Shown one piece after another: positions 5,626 through 21,502 of a DNA stretch of 22,479 nucleotides. Under the pieces are notes generated by a model. The model made no database searches. It had not been told where the DNA came from and saw only the letters and a program-made list of their open reading frames with translations. The DNA is from a virus: IMG/VR virus record IMGVR_UViG_3300022562_000654, positions 1-22,479 of that record; one strand, written 5' to 3'. Both the position numbers and the translations under genes were made by a program. The number at the start of each line of letters is the position of its first letter. The stretch's first letter is position 1.

Positions 5626-7995
5626 ATGGCGATGAAGGCGAGATCCCTGACGGAGGAGGACGAGAAACCTCCACCATCGTGGTCATTGGCCGCAAGGCCA
5701 CACATACCACTCAGGGTTGAACCGGAACCGCCGCCACTTGCAAGTGATGGCAAGGTGGTGTCGATCTGGAAGGGTCGACAGCATACTCGTGCTCTAACTC
5801 CTGTTGAGGAGCAACTCAAAGCCATGTTCGCCGAGATGGCGAAGGCTGAGTGCGGCATCAGTGTGCCACGGCTAGCAGATGCATCAGATGGTGCAGTGGT
5901 TGATGACTCAGAACATTACCACGCTGCCCTAGCTCACATCACACCGCTGGGAATGACGAGCGTAGTCAAGACAAATGGGACAGACTTGTTCGGCAACCCG
6001 CATCGGATCGATCGGATCAGTTTGGACGAACCATTCAACCCGTTGAAATGCGGGTCGGTTTGTACATGGGTAGGGTTCACCCAATCAGAGAACCCAGCAG
6101 CGTGGGCTGAAGCTGCCGTTCGTTGGAGACGAAGGACTAACCGTTCCAGGGTTAAGCGCCAACGATACAACAAGCCCGAGACCACAGCACGTGAGAACTT
6201 GGTAAGAATCGGTGAGTACACCAGACCACCATCGGTCATGTGGTTTTTGAACCACCCGACTGGTCGGTTCGACCGTCGATTCCAAACCCCTTGGCCTCCC
6301 GGAAGACAGGACCTCGGCCACGAACATGGCTCGATTACTGCACTCCACAAGAACAAGGAACAACTCTGGCGTGAGTGGTATGCATGTCTATCAGAAGAAC
6401 GTAGGTTCTTGATCGACATGCCGCGTAGTCATCCTTTGTTGGAGGAGGATGACATTCGTATGAGGGATGAATTGCTGCTTGAATTCCAACAGATACTGCG
6501 TTGGCAGTTCGAAAGTTTCAAGCAACCCGCACTCACACTGCCCGAAGAGGATATGTCTCTGCCCGAATGCGTAGAGAATGGGTATGCGTCGTTCATGCGC
6601 GTACTCGAAATCGTCGTACCGGAAGATGACATCCCGGTTGCAGTGGAAACGGAGAAAGGTAATCCGTTGGTGTGCGCTGAACCAACCCCGAAGATGGCGG
6701 ACGAGCCGTACATCGAGGGAGAGTTCGAGGTAGTGAGCGAGGAGAGTCAACCTCCCTCTGGTCTGCAACGAGTCGACACCCAGACACGGGTTAGCTCGGA
6801 CCAGTTCTTGGTGAACCTCGCTTTCAATGGTGATGTGCAGTTGAACCTGCTGTCACCGGAGTCCTTGGAGTTCCTGAGTAACACGCACATCCCGCGTGTC
6901 AGGGCTTACTTGGATGTGCTCGTCCGTTGCAAGCTGTCAGGTGAAGCGTTGCAACATGGTTCTCTTGCTGCATCAATGGCAGCCAACGATGATGTTAACA
7001 TCGATGGCCTCATGGATGATGCGAATATCGAGATGGAAGTGGAACGAGTGGTTGAGGAGGAGCCGTACTATTCGGTAGACAACATCGAAACCGGTGTGAA
7101 ACTACATATTACGGAGAGTGACCTTCTCACCCCGACCAATAGGGGTCGGTTGTATCCGCTTAACTATTATGGTTTGCGTCCCCTAACTTCGCTTCTCAAA
7201 GCGGAACGGAAGGCGCTGAACCCTAGTCGTTATGCAAAGTTCGAACGTCATGCATTTCGAACTGCCAATGCCAATCGTCAAATAACGATGGCACGCAGAG
7301 AGAGGGAAGCACAAGCCCTCATCGAGATGCACGAAGAGCGAAAGCGACAACTTCCAATCGAGATCGAAGCTATCAAGCGTATCGGCTTGCGTCAACGCAG
7401 CATGCAAGCTGTACGTGATTCACAATCACGTGCAGATCATGAGAAGATCGCAGCTATAACCAAAGAGCAGCTCGTCGTGGAACTACAAGCCCATCGCCGA
7501 GTGTTCAAGGACAAGCGTAGCTGGCTGACCAAGCAACGACAAAAGCTGGAGCTGAAGCTCAAGAACTTGCGAAGGGCTCACCATCGCAAGCTTTGGAAGA
7601 ATCCAGAATACGCAGCGGCATTCAGTGCGTTGCGGAAGCAGCCTCCAAAACTGCAAACGTCTGGTGTTGTGAGTCAGAAGGCCGTGACTCAGACCAACGA
7701 ATCGGCACAGATCATAGTCCTTGGGGATACTGCGGTACTACATAAGATCAAGAAAATGCGTGAGTGGTTGATTGTCAACACGACGCATGATCTGGTGGAA
7801 ATACTAAAGCATGAATCCCTCATCTACCAGCACTACCCTAGGTTGGGACAAGCCGACACTGAATCGGAAAAGAAACCGATCGTTGCCGTCCGTCCTCCAT
7901 ATCTTGAGGGTACTGGTATCATCAAGGGCAACCCGTATACAATGCGAGCAGCTCAACGCATTCATCAGCGGCGAGCGGCTCGCATGGCAGCGTAG
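5626..7995 (+). CDS. Large protein of unknown function (789 aa)
   Basis: This is the longest gene of the window, and I do not recognise it. TAAGGAGGA stands 6-7 bases before the ATG at 5626. The N-terminal 40 residues are Pro-rich and probably disordered (EDEKPPPSWSL, EPEPPPL). Residues about 60-330 look globular and Trp/Arg-rich (WLRRTNRSRVKRQRYNK-like basic patch near 165-185). About 340-500 is acidic. About 560-680 is a long charged helical, coiled-coil-like region (TMARREREAQALIEMHEERK). The C-terminus is basic (RAAQRIHQRRAARM). No nuclease, polymerase, ATPase or virion-protein motif is visible. It is not an RNA polymerase. Its place between early and membrane genes leaves host takeover or an internal virion protein as options. 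Confidence 0.9.
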   Translation: MAMKARSLTEEDEKPPPSWSLAARPHIPLRVEPEPPPLASDGKVVSIWKGRQHTRALTPVEEQLKAMFAEMAKAECGISVPRLADASDGAVVDDSEHYHAALAHITPLGMTSVVKTNGTDLFGNPHRIDRISLDEPFNPLKCGSVCTWVGFTQSENPAAWAEAAVRWRRRTNRSRVKRQRYNKPETTARENLVRIGEYTRPPSVMWFLNHPTGRFDRRFQTPWPPGRQDLGHEHGSITALHKNKEQLWREWYACLSEERRFLIDMPRSHPLLEEDDIRMRDELLLEFQQILRWQFESFKQPALTLPEEDMSLPECVENGYASFMRVLEIVVPEDDIPVAVETEKGNPLVCAEPTPKMADEPYIEGEFEVVSEESQPPSGLQRVDTQTRVSSDQFLVNLAFNGDVQLNLLSPESLEFLSNTHIPRVRAYLDVLVRCKLSGEALQHGSLAASMAANDDVNIDGLMDDANIEMEVERVVEEEPYYSVDNIETGVKLHITESDLLTPTNRGRLYPLNYYGLRPLTSLLKAERKALNPSRYAKFERHAFRTANANRQITMARREREAQALIEMHEERKRQLPIEIEAIKRIGLRQRSMQAVRDSQSRADHEKIAAITKEQLVVELQAHRRVFKDKRSWLTKQRQKLELKLKNLRRAHHRKLWKNPEYAAAFSALRKQPPKLQTSGVVSQKAVTQTNESAQIIVLGDTAVLHKIKKMREWLIVNTTHDLVEILKHESLIYQHYPRLGQADTESEKKPIVAVRPPYLEGTGIIKGNPYTMRAAQRIHQRRAARMAA

Positions 7996-8152
7996 TGCTA
8001 CTGCCAGTTGAAACCTGAGCAGTAACTGGTGCAAATCCAGTGACCGTCTGGCTACGTATTCAGTATTAGTACAGAGGATTGGAATGTATTGGCTACGTAG
8101 CCATACCTGGGTAGCCAGGAAGGAATCAGAAACCAGATAAAGGAGAGATCCA
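7991..8152 (+). other. Structured spacer with T-arm-like hairpin and GGCTACGTA repeats
   Basis: CGTAG (7991) and CTACG (8052) could close a domain containing TACTGC/GCAGTA with a 14-nt loop and ACTGG-TGCAAAT-CCAGT (8025-8041), which looks like a tRNA T-arm. The remaining arms of a tRNA are absent. GGCTACGTA occurs at 8050 and again inside the perfect 12-bp palindrome GGCTACGTAGCC (8091-8102). Confidence 0.4.
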
Positions 8153-12797: not shown

Positions 12798-12951
12798 GCT
12801 GGTCCTAGTACATGGTGCAACGGAACTTCAGAGCCAGTGCGTAGCCCCTGAAAAGGCTACGTACTGAGGCTGCTGGTACGTTGTATTGCTGGAATTTCGG
12901 CACGGTAGTTGCTGTCCAAGTGATCCCCATTACACAAGGATGGCACCTACC
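12798..12951 (+). other. Spacer with hairpins before the primase/helicase
   Basis: GCGTAGCC (12839-12846) and GGCTACGT (12855-12862) form an 8-bp stem with one G-U pair. ACGTAC/GTACGT could form an alternative stem at about 12859-12881. The GGCTACGTA motif is shared with 8050 and 8091. The arrangement suggests a leader that controls the replication block. Confidence 0.45.
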
Positions 12952-14637
12952 ATGCCACTCGTAAGTGGACAATTCGTCCGTCATTCCCCATGTACAGAGT
13001 GTAACAGCTCTGACGCCATGGCATTGTATCGTAAGCCCGATGGTTCGTATGATGCCTATTGCTTCTCGTGCGGACACTACGACAGTGACCCATTAGGCCA
13101 AGGCGACACGACAAATAATGGTCAGGCCAGTGAGGTTAGAGAGATCTTTTCTCTCGATTACTACGTCGAGTGTCCCACGAGGGGCATCCCCTCCCGTGGT
13201 ATACACCAATCAACCTGCGAATTCTACAACGTCAAGACTATTCTCAACGGTCTTGATGGCCAAACCCCCGTAGCCCTATTATTCCCCTATTATATATATA
13301 GTAATAATAGTATTACTCTATCTGGATATAAGAAGAGAATACTAGATAATAAGATCTTTAGTTCTATAGGTAATACTAAAGATACTTTTCTCTTTGGACA
13401 AGATAAGTTCTTAGAAGGAGGAAAGAGAGTATATATTACTGAAGGAGAAATAGATTGTCTATCTCTCTATCAAGTTCTTAAAGATCTAGCTAGTCCAGAA
13501 TATAGACACTTACATCCTTGTGTTGTGTCTGTCCCTCATGGTGCTCAATCCGCAGCCAAAGCTATCGCCCACAATAAATCCTTCCTTGATCTATTCGAAC
13601 AAATCATCTTAGTCTTTGACCAAGACGAAGCTGGTGAACAGGCAGTAGCTCAGATCTGTTCCTTCCTTGATCCCTCCAAGGTACGCGTAGCCCACTTCTC
13701 AGAGAAAGATCCTAACGACATGCTCATGAAGGGCAAGTCCTCTGAGCTCAAGTGGAGCGTTATAAGCCACGCTAAACCTTACGTACCCTCAGGTATTGCC
13801 ACCTCCCAAAGTCTTCTCACAAGCGCACTGGAGAGCCCTACGAAGGGATACTCATGGCCATGGCCCAGTATGACTAAGCTGACCATGGGCATTAGACCCG
13901 GTATTCATTTGATTGGGGCAGGTGTAGGTGTAGGGAAGACTGAATTCTTTCACGAACTAATCTGGAATCTAACACATGAACTTAAAAGACCGACTGGTAT
14001 CTTTCTTTTGGAAGAACCCCCTTCGAAAACTCTACGAATACTGGGAGGGAAAACGCTTAATATTCCGGCCCACCGATCGGATATCGTGGTTGATGTGGAG
14101 AAATTCAAGCGAGCAATATCGGAACTTAGCGAGCCAAGGGAATACCTCTATGTCTTCGATCATTGTGGATCGAAAGACTGGGACACAGTATTCAGTCAAG
14201 CTAAGTATCTCGCGGCTATCCACGGAGTCCGAGACATTATCATCGACCCTCTCACTGCAATCATCTCCCATGAAGAGTCCACTGATAGAGCCCTCCATCG
14301 GATAATGGCGGAGATGGCTTCCCTCACACAGGATCCATACAACTGTGCAGTGTATGTGTCCTCCCACCTGAACGAACCTCCTCGAGATAAGACACCACAT
14401 GAAGAAGGTGGACGTGTGCATGAGTCCCAGTTCGCTGGGTCTCGTGCCATGATCCGCTTCTCTGACTACGTGTGGGGTCTCGAACGTAACAAACAACATC
14501 AAGACATACTCAAGCGTAACACTACGACTGTTCGCAACCTGAAGGATAGACATCATGGTACTGCTACCGGTGAAACTTTTGAGATCTATTATGATCCAAG
14601 CACCGGTCGATATCAGGAGTTGAATCTTGAATTCTAG
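12952..14637 (+). CDS. DNA primase/helicase, T7 gp4 type (561 aa)
   Basis: Bifunctional replisome motor: it makes RNA primers and unwinds the fork ahead of the phage polymerase. ATG 12952 is chosen for the AAGGA about 11 bases upstream and for a length near T7 gp4 (566 aa); ATG 12940 is possible. A primase zinc finger uses C14, C17, C37 and C40. The TOPRIM domain shows YITEGEID (E165, D169) and VFDQDEAG (221-228). The RecA-like helicase shows Walker A GAGVGVGKTE (322-331), LLEEP with catalytic-Glu candidates E354/E355, Walker B DIIIDPL (428-434), and the SSHLNEP and QFAGSRAMIRFSD motifs toward the C-terminus. Codons about 13280-13500, between zinc finger and TOPRIM, are markedly AT-rich. Confidence 0.96.
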   Translation: MPLVSGQFVRHSPCTECNSSDAMALYRKPDGSYDAYCFSCGHYDSDPLGQGDTTNNGQASEVREIFSLDYYVECPTRGIPSRGIHQSTCEFYNVKTILNGLDGQTPVALLFPYYIYSNNSITLSGYKKRILDNKIFSSIGNTKDTFLFGQDKFLEGGKRVYITEGEIDCLSLYQVLKDLASPEYRHLHPCVVSVPHGAQSAAKAIAHNKSFLDLFEQIILVFDQDEAGEQAVAQICSFLDPSKVRVAHFSEKDPNDMLMKGKSSELKWSVISHAKPYVPSGIATSQSLLTSALESPTKGYSWPWPSMTKLTMGIRPGIHLIGAGVGVGKTEFFHELIWNLTHELKRPTGIFLLEEPPSKTLRILGGKTLNIPAHRSDIVVDVEKFKRAISELSEPREYLYVFDHCGSKDWDTVFSQAKYLAAIHGVRDIIIDPLTAIISHEESTDRALHRIMAEMASLTQDPYNCAVYVSSHLNEPPRDKTPHEEGGRVHESQFAGSRAMIRFSDYVWGLERNKQHQDILKRNTTTVRNLKDRHHGTATGETFEIYYDPSTGRYQELNLEF

Positions 14638-15455: not shown

Positions 15456-15643
15456 TGAAACCTAGTACATACAACTTCATAGGCCACGCTTACGGATTGA
15501 ATGGAGCCTTATCTCTAGCCACAGTTGGTTACGTCTATCTTAGGACTGATGTTATCAGCGCATGGTGGCTCTTCATTACGGCTATCTCCTTTGCTGGTGC
15601 TATGATTAATTGGAGTATCGCAAAGAATGCGGCGTCAGAATAG
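15455..15643 (+). CDS. Two-TM small protein (62 aa)
   Basis: The start at 15455 overlaps the preceding stop (TAATG). Two membrane segments are visible, about residues 14-29 and 35-53 (AWWLFITAISFAGAMINW), with a short loop between. It pairs with the preceding single-TM gene. The two may act together in the membrane, which is inferred from adjacency only. Confidence 0.65.
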   Translation: MKPSTYNFIGHAYGLNGALSLATVGYVYLRTDVISAWWLFITAISFAGAMINWSIAKNAASE

Positions 15644-15650
15644 AGGTCGA

Positions 15651-15854
15651 ATGCTTACTATGCCTAGTGACTTCGATCCTGAAATCAATTCTAGTATAGC
15701 TGCTGAAATGTACAATGTTACTGCCAGAACAATTCAGCGATGGCGTCAGGTCCTGAGAGATAAGCCCAAAGATGATATTGAATTCATGGATCCAGGTAAA
15801 CTCGAACAAAAAGACATTGAATGGCGGAACACATGGATAAAGAAAAGCTGGTAG
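15651..15854 (+). CDS. Small helix-turn-helix protein (67 aa)
   Basis: ATG 15651 is chosen because AGAGGT precedes it by about 4 bases. ATG 15627 would add 8 basic residues. Residues about 13-36 (SSIAAEMYNVTARTIQRWRQ) form a homeodomain-like/MerR-type helix-turn-helix with recognition helix TARTIQRWRQVL. This suggests a small DNA-binding regulator, or the small subunit of a terminase-like DNA binder, though the latter is unlikely inside the replication block. It overlaps the polymerase start. Confidence 0.7.
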   Translation: MLTMPSDFDPEINSSIAAEMYNVTARTIQRWRQVLRDKPKDDIEFMDPGKLEQKDIEWRNTWIKKSW

Positions 15855-17860
15855 ATGGAGTCAAGTATGACTCAGAGAAACTTCCTGTTCATTTGATTCC
15901 TCCGGAGATTATTCATGCGTTGGGTGAGATCCTCCGCTTTGGAGCAACCAAGTACGAACCCCGCAATTGGGAGAAAGGCATGGCCTGGTCCCGATGCTGG
16001 TCTGCATGTGAGCGACACATGTGGGCATGGTGGGGTGGAGAAGACAACGATCCCGAAACCGGAATGTCTCATCTATGGCATGCTGCTTGCTGCATTGCTT
16101 TCCTCGTAGCCGAAACAAACGGGATCGACTTTATTAAAGGAGATCATGTAGAACAAGCACACACTGTGTGGTGTATCTACACTAAAGATGTAGACACAGG
16201 TCGAGAAAAATACTGGGCGAAAGATGATGGCCCATTTCAATACGAACTATTGCAATTGTGTATCCAATATTTGGAGCAAGCAGATGAACTCATCGGACAC
16301 AACATCATTGAATTTGACATTCCCGTCTTGGGTAATCTATTTAATTTCAGACCTAGAGGCAGACTCACAGATACTCTTGTCCTTTCTCGACTCCTTAACC
16401 CCGACCGAGATGGAGGCCATAGCCTTGAGTCATGGGGCGAGAGATTTAATTTCTCTAAATCAGAGTTTAGTGATTTCAGTAGATACTCTGAAGAATTGCT
16501 GGGACGTTGTAGACAAGATGTGTTGCTTAATGAACGAGTATACAAAACACTTAGCGTCGAAGCCGAAGGATGGGGAGAGTCTGTCAAACTTGAGCATGAT
16601 ATCGCTGACATCATCCGCCGTCAATCCGAACATGGATTCTACTTCGACGTAGACAAAGCACGCAGTCTATTAGAGGCTGTGGTGGAGCAGATAAATGATA
16701 TTGATCGGGATCTGTTGTGTGATTCTAGCTTTAGGGTTGACACTCTGGCTACGGTCTCTAAGCCCTTCACTGTGGCGGGCAAGATGGCCATGGTGGCTAA
16801 ACGAGCTGCGGAGAATAGCAACATTGACAGCAGTCTCATTGCTGGTCCTTTCTCTAGCTTTGCTTATTCGCCGATTAATCTAGATTCAGATCAACAATTG
16901 AAGACATGGTTACTGGAGAAGGGATGGAAACCAGACGAGTACACTCCTACCGGACTACCAAAAGTAACTACAAGTTCGCTAGAAAAGTTCACTCCTATTG
17001 GGCCAAAGGTGTTACTGCGAGGACAGCTCGCTCACCGTCGTGGACAGATAGAGGGGTTGATCTCTTTCGTAAGGAGCGATGGTCGGATCAGTGGGGGAGC
17101 GAACCCTTGCGGGACGAACACCGGACGGATGAGACACCGAAGGATAGTCAACATCCCGAAGGTGAAAGCGTTCATGGGCTTCGAGATGCGAAGCCTGTTT
17201 ATCGCTACTCCTGGAAAGATCTTAGTTGGTTACGACGCTAAACAATTAGAGTTACGAATCCTTGCACACTACATAGGGAACGACGATTATGCAGACCGAA
17301 TCATTAACGGAACAAAAGACAATGACGTCCATGTACTGGCGGCTCGAGCAGGTGAATCAAATGATCGAGACGTTGGAAAAACTATCAACTACGCTCTCAT
17401 TTATGGAGCAAGAGATGCTCGATTGGGATCCATTGTTGGAGGATCCAGAGCCACGGGAGCTAAAATTCGTGCAGCCTTGTATCGAGAAATCCCTGGCCTT
17501 GAGTCACTCGTTAAAGGAGTGGACACTGCAGCTAAAAGAGGCTATCTGGTGGGGCTTGATGGACGAAAAGTATACGTCCGCTCGGGGAAATCCCCCCTCA
17601 ACTCTCTGATCCAATCGGGAGGAGCCATCTGTATGAAGTGGATTGCTGCATATCTAGATGATTGGATTGACGAAGATGGTCCACTTAAAAAAGTATTGGA
17701 TATGCACGACGAAGCACAATGGGAGATGCCTCCAGAAGATTTCAATAGATTCAAAGGCTATGTAATAGACACATTCGATGAATGTACTAAACATTTTAAA
17801 CTCAGATGTAGGCTAGAAGCAGATGTCAAACGTGGTAGATCTTGGGCAGAAACGCACTGA
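15821..17860 (+). CDS. dATP/dGTP diphosphohydrolase-like domain fused to family A DNA polymerase (679 aa)
   Basis: Phage replicative polymerase with an unusual N-terminus. Residues about 9-98 match the DUF5664/dGTP_diPhyd (MazZ-like) family, with GVKYDSEKLP, LIPPE, GATKY..RNWEKG, RHMWAWWGGEDNDPETG and HLWHAACCIAFL. Members hydrolyse dATP/dGTP to the monophosphate. Residues about 115-245 are a 3'-5' exonuclease domain with Exo II GHNIIEFD (159-166) and Exo III CRQDV (230-234). The polymerase shows motif A VGYDAKQLELR (D472), motif B RDVGKTINYALIYG (R516, K520, Y524, Y528) and motif C HDE (629-631). The Exo I DxE is VAE and the Exo III Tyr is Arg, so proofreading may be weak. An AAAGGAG-ATC-ATG-TAG at the junction (16136-16151) hints at a former separate start. 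ATG 15833 is an alternative start. Confidence 0.93.
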   Translation: MAEHMDKEKLVDGVKYDSEKLPVHLIPPEIIHALGEILRFGATKYEPRNWEKGMAWSRCWSACERHMWAWWGGEDNDPETGMSHLWHAACCIAFLVAETNGIDFIKGDHVEQAHTVWCIYTKDVDTGREKYWAKDDGPFQYELLQLCIQYLEQADELIGHNIIEFDIPVLGNLFNFRPRGRLTDTLVLSRLLNPDRDGGHSLESWGERFNFSKSEFSDFSRYSEELLGRCRQDVLLNERVYKTLSVEAEGWGESVKLEHDIADIIRRQSEHGFYFDVDKARSLLEAVVEQINDIDRDLLCDSSFRVDTLATVSKPFTVAGKMAMVAKRAAENSNIDSSLIAGPFSSFAYSPINLDSDQQLKTWLLEKGWKPDEYTPTGLPKVTTSSLEKFTPIGPKVLLRGQLAHRRGQIEGLISFVRSDGRISGGANPCGTNTGRMRHRRIVNIPKVKAFMGFEMRSLFIATPGKILVGYDAKQLELRILAHYIGNDDYADRIINGTKDNDVHVLAARAGESNDRDVGKTINYALIYGARDARLGSIVGGSRATGAKIRAALYREIPGLESLVKGVDTAAKRGYLVGLDGRKVYVRSGKSPLNSLIQSGGAICMKWIAAYLDDWIDEDGPLKKVLDMHDEAQWEMPPEDFNRFKGYVIDTFDECTKHFKLRCRLEADVKRGRSWAETH

Positions 17861-18451: not shown

Positions 18452-18557
18452 AACAAGACACAACCTTCAGAAGTTCAAGATTAAACAACACAAAGATAAA
18501 ACTAAATACGATAGGAAATCAAATGAGCAAATTCAATCCCAGTGCAAAAGAAACTAA
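18435..18557 (+). CDS. Possible very basic peptide (40 aa)
   Basis: This ORF in the third frame bridges the previous gene and the SSB-like gene (MKRKIKTRHNLQKFKIKQHK, about half Lys/Arg/His). The ribosome site is poor and the AT-rich, AAA-heavy sequence could give such a frame by chance. It is the only frame covering 18452-18522. A weak call. Confidence 0.25.
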   Translation: MKRKIKTRHNLQKFKIKQHKDKTKYDRKSNEQIQSQCKRN

Positions 18558-19110
18558 AACACAATTCGAACTAATCCCTGAAGGACCACACCCCGCTCGA
18601 TGCTCTCGCATCATTGAGATTGGTGAACAAGAAAGTCAATACGGAGTACAAACGAAAGTAATCATTGCATTCAATGTTACTGATTCGTTTATTAAACTCT
18701 CTGATGGTACTGAAAAACAACGGATGATTTCGAATCCGTTTGGTATCAACATGAGCAACAACGAGAAGAGCACGATGGCTCAGTACACGAAAGCACTTAA
18801 TGCTCGTGCATCTAGCCTCGGTGATTTCTTGGAACGCCCATGTCAGGTAAGTATTATCCACTACAAGAAAGACGACACTGTTCGCGATCGTCTTGATGCA
18901 GTGGCTCCTATTATCCCTGGCCTTCAGATTCCAGAATTGGATATCACTCCGTTCTGGTTTAAGTGGGATGCACCAGAAGTCGAACAGTGGGCGCTCATTC
19001 CTGAGTTTACTCAGAAACTAATCATGCAAGCAGTAAACTATAAGGGATCTGCTGTTGAAGATATGGTGAAGACTCTTGAAACCAAGGGTTCGACAAACAC
19101 TCCGTTTTAA
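18523..19110 (+). CDS. Probable ssDNA-binding protein (195 aa)
   Basis: AGGAAA stands 7 bases before the ATG at 18523. The N-terminal pattern (FNPSAKETKTQFELIPEGPH followed by PARCSRIIEIGEQESQYGVQ) is characteristic of phage OB-fold ssDNA-binding/DUF669-like proteins found beside T7-type polymerases. They coat single strands at the fork and recruit polymerase and helicase. The middle keeps the beta-rich core (KVIIAFNVTDSF, PCQVSIIHYKK). The C-terminus ends in TNTPF: the terminal Pro-Phe recalls the SSB tip, but the usual acidic tail is missing. Shorter than T7 gp2.5 (232 aa). Position between polymerase and exonuclease fits. Confidence 0.75.
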   Translation: MSKFNPSAKETKTQFELIPEGPHPARCSRIIEIGEQESQYGVQTKVIIAFNVTDSFIKLSDGTEKQRMISNPFGINMSNNEKSTMAQYTKALNARASSLGDFLERPCQVSIIHYKKDDTVRDRLDAVAPIIPGLQIPELDITPFWFKWDAPEVEQWALIPEFTQKLIMQAVNYKGSAVEDMVKTLETKGSTNTPF

Positions 19111-19297: not shown

Positions 19298-20182
19298 ATG
19301 CGAGCCCTCCTCGACTGCGATGTACTCTGTTACTCCGTAGGTAGTGCTAAAGATGAGATTGGTAACCCTCTATCCTGGCCTTTAGTACAGGCTAGGGTCG
19401 ATACCATTCTCAATGGCATTACTCGATCAGTTGAAGCGGACTCGTGGCAAGGGTACCTTACCGGAGCTGGTAACTTTCGAGAGAAAGTAGCCACAATCAA
19501 ACCTTACAAGGGTAATCGTGATAGAGATGCCAGACCTTTCTGGTATCAACGTATTTACGATTACCTATCTACTAATAGAAATTGTATTATAGTACATGGA
19601 ATGGAGGCTGACGATGCAATTGCGATCGCAAGCGACAAAGAATACAAAACCACCGTCATTATTTCAGCGGATAAAGACCTACTTCAAGTCCCTGGTTGGC
19701 ATGCAAGCTGGCCCTACTACGGCGAAACCGCCTCGAAAGCGTTCTTCGTCAGTGAAGAAGAGAGCTGGAAAGCGTTCTTCAAACAACTCCTCATCGGTGA
19801 CCAGTCCGATAACATCCCAGGATTGTACCGTATCGGGCCAAGCTCCCAATGTGTGAAGGATGTTCTTAATCTAACACATCCAGCAGATATGTTTGAGGTG
19901 TGTCAGTTTGAATATGAGAAGCGTTTCGGTTCTTATTGGAAACAATTCATAGAAGAAAATGGAACGCTTCTTTGGTTACTACGTCATGAAGAAGACAGCT
20001 TTAAAAAGAGAATGCAATGGTTCTTGGAAGAAGGATACCGAAGGCAAGAGCAGCGGCGAGACGCCGCTACTTTTCTTATGAGATTGAATGGGGAGGCTCT
20101 GTCGACGACTCCCCTCGAGTCATCTTCATTCACTACACAGATCTTGACCGTAATCTCCAACGAAGCTACTGCATCGCAATAG
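19298..20182 (+). CDS. 5'-3' exonuclease, T7 gp6 / FEN type (294 aa)
   Basis: Removes RNA primers and degrades host DNA from 5' ends. GAAGAAGGTG precedes the ATG at 19298, which directly follows the previous TAA. Conserved acidic metal ligands are visible in order: LLDCDVL (D6, D8), YKGNR (70-74), GMEADDAIAIAS (E103, D105, D106), ISADKDLLQ (D125, D127) and LLIGDQSDNIPG (D168, D171) followed by a helix-hairpin region GLYRIGP. Length is close to T7 gp6 (300 aa). The last 55 codons overlap another frame that also looks coding. Confidence 0.93.
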   Translation: MRALLDCDVLCYSVGSAKDEIGNPLSWPLVQARVDTILNGITRSVEADSWQGYLTGAGNFREKVATIKPYKGNRDRDARPFWYQRIYDYLSTNRNCIIVHGMEADDAIAIASDKEYKTTVIISADKDLLQVPGWHASWPYYGETASKAFFVSEEESWKAFFKQLLIGDQSDNIPGLYRIGPSSQCVKDVLNLTHPADMFEVCQFEYEKRFGSYWKQFIEENGTLLWLLRHEEDSFKKRMQWFLEEGYRRQEQRRDAATFLMRLNGEALSTTPLESSSFTTQILTVISNEATASQ

Positions 20183-20860: not shown

Positions 20861-21099
20861 CGAAACAAACTAAAGAGAAGATTCCTAAAAAGAAAAAAAT
20901 AGATGAAATGCGAGAATTTTTTCTACAAAAACTTGTAGATGCTGAAGAAGAAATGCTTCAAGCCTGGAGACAAGTGGAAGATCTAAAAAAAATCCATGCA
21001 TTTGAATTGAAAACTGTACACGGTCTTCTTGTTGACGAATTTACAAAAGGCTACAATGCGTGCATGAAAAATTATGGGCTTAAAAATAAAGAAGAGTAA
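20857..21099 (+). CDS. Small coiled-coil protein (80 aa)
   Basis: The GTG at 20857 is coupled to the holin stop (GTGA). A Lys-rich N-terminus (TKQTKEKIPKKKKIDEM) leads to a long helix (REFFLQKLVDAEEEMLQAWR) likely to form a coiled coil. There is no TM or lipobox, so it is not a recognisable spanin. Its end overlaps the endonuclease gene by 26 nt. Confidence 0.65.
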   Translation: MTKQTKEKIPKKKKIDEMREFFLQKLVDAEEEMLQAWRQVEDLKKIHAFELKTVHGLLVDEFTKGYNACMKNYGLKNKEE

Positions 21100-21502
21100 A
21101 CGTGCTAAGTATCGATCTGGATTAGAAAGAAAGATAGCACAGTCTCTTCATAAAAAGAAAGTTAAGTTCTCATACGAGAAAGATCAGATAGTTTACGTAG
21201 TCCCTAGTGTAGAGAGAACCTACATCCCCGACTTCTCGATCATAACCAAAAGCGGGAAGAGGATATTTATCGAGGCGAAGGGGATATGGGACGCACTAGA
21301 CAGACACAAACATCTGCTGCTTAAACGACAGCGTCCTGATTTAGATATAAGATTTGTGTTCTCTAATCCGAACATGAAGCTATCTAAGAAGTCTAAGACT
21401 ACATATGCAGACATATGTGAAGGACGTGGACGCTTCCCTTACAAAGATGTTATCTGGAAATACTCACACAAAACAATCCCTAACGAATGGTTGGAAGAAT
21501 GA
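21074..21502 (+). CDS. Endonuclease I / Holliday-junction resolvase, T7 gp3 type (142 aa)
   Basis: It resolves branched phage DNA before packaging and helps degrade host DNA. Catalytic residues align with T7 gp3 (E20, D55, E65, K67): here YRSGLE (E18), YIPDF (D53) and IEAKG (E67, K69). HKHLLLKRQRPDLDIRFVFS and PNEWLEE also match the family. Length is close to T7 gp3 (149 aa). The ATG at 21074 is the only in-frame start and overlaps the preceding gene. Its TGA overlaps the endolysin start (ATGA at 21499-21502). Confidence 0.95.
   Translation: MGLKIKKSKRAKYRSGLERKIAQSLHKKKVKFSYEKDQIVYVVPSVERTYIPDFSIITKSGKRIFIEAKGIWDALDRHKHLLLKRQRPDLDIRFVFSNPNMKLSKKSKTTYADICEGRGRFPYKDVIWKYSHKTIPNEWLEE

Follow-up and report, generated by a model that had tools for sequence, protein, structure and literature searches.

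The window analysed here is the entire virus record IMGVR_UViG_3300022562_000654 (22,479 bases), which probably represents part of a larger phage genome. It contains an ORF of 679 codons, open throughout and without an internal stop, that encodes a dATP/dGTP diphosphohydrolase domain followed by a T7-type family A exonuclease/polymerase (Table 1). Residues 13-97 match the Pfam family PF18909 (dGTP_diPhyd_N, dATP/dGTP diphosphohydrolase, N-terminal; DUF5664) with an E value of 1.5e-32 and a score of 111.9 bits (cut-off 27); residues 7-96 match the dATP/dGTP pyrophosphohydrolases of PHROG 801 (5.8e-36). The remainder matches DNA_pol_A (residues 348-677; 1e-37) and the DNA polymerases of PHROG 17 (residues 98-678; 1.9e-110). 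These results bear out an earlier note on this DNA, which had placed both enzymes in one uninterrupted frame; the hydrolase motifs quoted there are all present, and the strong Pfam match obtained with residues 1-110 removes the doubt it had raised about the family assignment.

Table 1. Features of the fused ORF and of its neighbourhood (window positions).
Feature	Position	Strand	Basis
T7 gp4-like primase-helicase, 61% identical to that of the nearest relative (G002)	12886..14637	+	Pfam, PHROGs, comparison
Small HTH-like ORF directly upstream of the fused ORF, overlapping it by 34 nt	15627..15854	+	ORF list, Pfam
Fused ORF, 679 aa: DUF5664 (PF18909) domain and T7-type family A exonuclease/polymerase	15821..17860	+	ORF list, Pfam, PHROGs
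DUF5664/dGTP_diPhyd_N domain, residues 13-97 (Pfam positions 4-88 of 99)	15857..16111	+	Pfam, alignments
Fusion junction, L95-V96-A97 then E98-T99-N100 (FLVA/ETNG)	16103..16120	+	Alignments, AlphaFold model
3'-5' exonuclease remnant, from residue 98 to about 245	16112..16555	+	Alignments, model
Family A polymerase domain, residues 348-677	16862..17851	+	Pfam, alignment
PHROG 862 conserved gene, downstream, in SSB gene position, 50% identical to G002	18523..19110	+	PHROGs, comparison
5'-3' exonuclease (PHROG 107), 50% identical to G002	19298..20182	+	Pfam, PHROGs, comparison
Phage endonuclease I (PF05367)	21074..21502	+	Pfam

The nearest relative, G002, has the primase-helicase, the polymerase (49% identity), the PHROG 862 protein and the 5'-3' exonuclease in the same order. 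PF18909 was found neither in its record nor in that of G001. Queries with the primase and the exonuclease retrieved no closer kin, and no close relative was found in this lineage in which the hydrolase and polymerase genes are still separate. Since the flanks on both sides belong to one lineage, the join has the appearance of an internal deletion that preserved the frame and is either recent or an artefact. Elsewhere in the window, a 789-aa ORF (5626-7995) without a Pfam or PHROG match contains a 157-residue stretch that is 32% identical to a region of G002. In the left 5.5 kb, the palindrome GTACTAGTAC occurs eight times without a mismatch (positions 250, 1628, 1718, 2068, 3039, 3099, 3165 and 5504), and copies with one mismatch at 8063 and 12802 bring the total to 10, where 0.28 are expected and none of 100 shuffles reached 10; they may be operator-like sites or serve in the control of an early region. 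Near the left end, a 20-nt palindrome (GTTAGTRAGTACTTACTAAC) occurs twice in almost identical form, at 189-208 and 367-386.

The hydrolase half retains every one of the 33 core positions that at least 85% of 34 homologues share, including K20, KY44-45, RNWE48-51, RH65-66, D77, E79, H84 and H87. The family assignment made earlier thus stands, although the domain is not complete, a point that had been missed: the last 11 of the 99 Pfam positions (89-99), which form the C-terminal GxDDR tail, are gone. The DDR columns are near-invariant across an alignment of 40 homologues, and PF18909 proteins, whether they stand alone or are fused to other domains, reach position 99, whereas the fused ORF ends at position 88. 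Its hydrolase half is 60-68% identical to small stand-alone proteins from another phage clade. The domain itself is widespread, being found in 1,024 phage records at an E value of 1e-5. Two other DUF5664 fusions with a complete domain were observed, one with a C-terminal NT5C-like 5'-nucleotidase (L055:5001-5801; weak match, E 0.003) and the other with an N-terminal DUF4406 (L062:4542-5264; E 3.8e-6).

In the polymerase half, the polymerase motifs are intact: D472 in motif A, K520, Y524 and Y528 in motif B, and H629-D630-E631 in motif C. Residue 524, at the position of E. coli 762, is a tyrosine, the type that adjoins gp4 helicases (PMC9069017). The earlier description of this half as a family A exonuclease-polymerase is supported, but the loss at its exonuclease end had been missed. 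The remnant keeps the Exo I glutamate (E98) and the aspartates of Exo II (D166, in GHNIIEFD) and Exo III (D233, in RCRQDV), and the motif set needed for proofreading is incomplete: the Exo I aspartate, equivalent to T7 D5, is absent together with the first exonuclease strand, and residues 80-97 contain no acidic residue in its place. Where the polymerase of the nearest relative begins MRLLFDIETN, the fused ORF reads CIAFLVAETN. Of 87 further polymerase ORFs with a length of 520 aa or more, 86 have the Exo I D-x-E, and the remaining one is truncated before the motif. As a separate observation, the exchange of the Exo III tyrosine for arginine (RC..DV) seen in the fused ORF also occurs in six related polymerases with an intact Exo I (L004, L006, L072, L073, L077 and L078).

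An AlphaFold model of the fused ORF has a mean pLDDT of 86, with low confidence at residues 1-15 and 93-105. Residues 84-97 are modelled as the closing helix of the hydrolase, which leads directly into the exonuclease just past the expected site of the Exo I aspartate; the exonuclease lacks its first strand, and the earliest strand that it has is at 118-122. T7 polymerase (2ajq) matches the model with Z 36.0 over 524 residues at 2.1 A, the match starting at T7 residue 9, i.e., past D5/E7. One segment cannot serve at once as hydrolase helix and as first exonuclease strand; given the low confidence at 93-105, CIAFLVAETN could alternatively pair as that strand. In the high-confidence model of a full-length relative of the hydrolase (L018), the equivalent helix spans 86-103 and is followed by an ordered tail. 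This second model matches 2p06 best (Z 7.1), with DCTPP1 7mu5 (Z 4.2) and the S-2L MazG-like protein 7ody (Z 3.9) behind it, and the matches to MazG-type enzymes at Z of about 3-4 are no more than suggestive of the MazG-like all-alpha NTP pyrophosphatase fold; a Foldseek search with the hydrolase model gave nothing under an E value of 0.001. For folding, only alignment A6 was used; several MAFFT alignments placed the polymerase N-terminus wrongly.

The earlier note had allowed that a frameshift error might have joined two separate genes. A sequencing indel or frameshift that masks two intact genes is ruled out, because no frame near 16050-16158 holds the missing exonuclease start or the missing hydrolase tail. 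Just past the junction, outside the polymerase frame, a strong ribosome-binding-like AAAGGAGAT is followed by ATG TAG (16137-16149), probably by chance.

A survey of family A polymerases for the same arrangement, as had been proposed, gave no second case. There was no other DUF5664-polymerase fusion in 50,697 phage records or among about 90 viral-contig polymerases, and examination of 59 hydrolase loci and about 90 polymerase loci showed no further fused ORF. A phage search with the fused protein yielded no single-piece full-length match among the matches listed, a scan of viral contigs for the junction peptide pattern returned two unrelated short frames only, and scanning prokaryote genomes gave no hits. 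A conserved fusion family is thus rejected at this depth, and the literature searched does not report a DUF5664-polymerase fusion. This is a new domain combination with one occurrence, in which both partners are damaged at the join.

We consider it somewhat better than an even bet (probability of about 0.55) that an in-frame deletion in a phage with a T7-type module joined adjacent hydrolase and polA genes, leaving a polymerase without proofreading and a hydrolase that is probably weakened. In this scenario, a DUF5664 pyrophosphohydrolase gene would have been gained beside the family A polymerase gene of a phage whose replication module is of the T7 type; we infer this ancestral two-gene state, as no such unfused relative was found in the lineage. 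The deletion would then have taken out about 11 conserved positions at the end of the hydrolase, DDR among them, and, from the polymerase, its start with the first exonuclease strand and the Exo I aspartate. The product would be a replicative polymerase whose 3'-5' proofreading is gone or nearly so, attached to a hydrolase with an intact core whose activity, which in characterised relatives converts dATP, dGTP and dUTP to dNMP and PPi, is probably lower. Judged from its motifs, an active but proofreading-deficient polymerase with a weakened hydrolase is the most likely product. As the Exo II and Exo III aspartates and all 33 hydrolase positions are unchanged, the event looks recent, or else happened in the assembly only.

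That the phage has two separate genes, and that the contig dropped the hydrolase tail, the stop, the spacer and the polymerase start, is a possible explanation that we hold to be unlikely. It would account for a cut that affects both domains exactly at the join and leaves the rest intact, and for the failure to find the fusion again in 50,697 phage records and some 90 viral contigs; besides, in the phages jiawei and S2B, DUF5664 is encoded by a gene of its own that immediately precedes the polymerase gene. However, the join is in frame, which would happen by chance about once in three times, the flanks belong to one lineage, so that the contig is not a chimaera of two genomes, and a search of the junction for repeats of at least 16 nt, at which an assembler could collapse, found none.

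It is doubtful that the ORF encodes a genuine, selected bifunctional enzyme, in which the hydrolase would tune dATP, dGTP and dUTP or dimerise the polymerase while the loss of proofreading is tolerated or beneficial. The 33 retained core positions and the intact polymerase motifs speak for it, as do the fusions of phage DUF5664 to other nucleotide-related domains, including DUF550 (PMC12884076), and the exonuclease-dead phage PolA variants that are known (divPolA1; PMC11348598). Against it stand the loss of a near-invariant DDR tail that the other DUF5664 fusions keep, the unchanged Exo II and Exo III aspartates, which are not expected in a long-established exonuclease-dead enzyme, and the fact that no relative has kept the fusion. 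Kinetics weigh against it as well. Replicative polymerases of the T7 type extend DNA by hundreds of nucleotides each second. Beside this rate, DUF5664, with a measured turnover of 0.05-0.5 per second (PMC12884076), works too slowly to control the local pool, so a tethered hydrolase would probably be unable to shift dNTP levels around the polymerase. The proposal of the earlier note that the fusion brings dNTP-pool sanitising to the polymerase is therefore doubtful, also because the DDR tail and the Exo I aspartate are lost. It is likewise rather improbable that this is a natural polymerase that traded proofreading for a tethered purine-dNTP/dUTP pyrophosphohydrolase handling fidelity or dNTP balance, or one in which a hydrolase dimer couples two polymerases.

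The proposed tie to 2,6-diaminopurine (Z) genomes, in which a MazZ-type domain and a DpoZ-type polymerase would form one protein of a 2-aminoadenine system, is very improbable: some PurZ and PurZ0 phages do have DUF5664 (PMC12884076), but so do canonical-genome phages, including named Arthrobacter phages (PMC12884076), the domain is common among phages, neither purZ-type PF00709 nor datZ-type PF12917 was matched in the 22.5-kb record, as the earlier note had already seen for the window (probably a genome fragment), or in the relatives searched, and the polymerase scores 41.4 bits with the NCBIfam DpoZ model, whose cut-off is 500. A link to 2-aminoadenine DNA is thus not supported, nothing in the 22.5 kb of phage covered demonstrating one.

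Altogether, the locus gives the impression of a one-off fusion by deletion, or of an assembly error, and neither of a tuned two-in-one enzyme nor of a Z-DNA marker. A real join would mean a natural proofreading-deficient phage replicase born of gene fusion, and would allow a direct test of whether one polypeptide can house dNTP hydrolysis and DNA synthesis. Should the assembly be at fault, the case cautions against deducing two-in-one enzymes from single metagenome contigs in which conserved ends are missing at the join.

Among known systems, the gene order resembles that of Mycobacterium phage jiawei and Caulobacter phage S2B, where a DUF5664 gene follows the primase-helicase and lies directly upstream of a T7-like polA, but there the two genes are separate and intact. 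Common ancestry with this gene pair is doubtful: identity between their DUF5664 and that of the fused ORF is no more than about 40%, although the tree is weak because of long branches. On the hydrolase side, the DUF5664 protein of Arthrobacter phage Wayne (ALY10775.1) and the MazZ of Acinetobacter phage SH-Ab 15497 belong to the same Pfam family and share the core residues. The Wayne protein, which converts dATP, dGTP and dUTP to monophosphates and PPi with kcat values of 0.48, 0.05 and 0.22 per second (PMC12884076), has a complete domain, and the SH-Ab 15497 MazZ is a DUF5664-DUF550 protein, whereas the fused ORF lacks the GxDDR tail and has a polymerase as its partner. DpoZ, the aminoadenine-specific DNA polymerase, is also a phage family A enzyme, from which the fused polymerase is set apart by its score far under the NCBIfam cut-off and by a record without purZ or datZ.

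With T7 gp5-type polymerases, the fused ORF has in common motifs A, B and C, the Exo II and Exo III aspartates and a gp4-like primase-helicase in the module, but its polymerase part is shorter (about 582 aa), and a hydrolase helix replaces the Exo I aspartate and the first strand. The classic exonuclease-dead T7 polymerase carries changes at D5/E7, and 6n7w, among the structural matches, is labelled D5A/E7A. The phage PolA divPolA1, in which the 3'-5' exonuclease is inactivated (PMC11348598), is likewise a family A enzyme with a degenerate exonuclease domain; it lost all three aspartates by substitution, whereas the fused ORF lost the Exo I end alone, by fusion.
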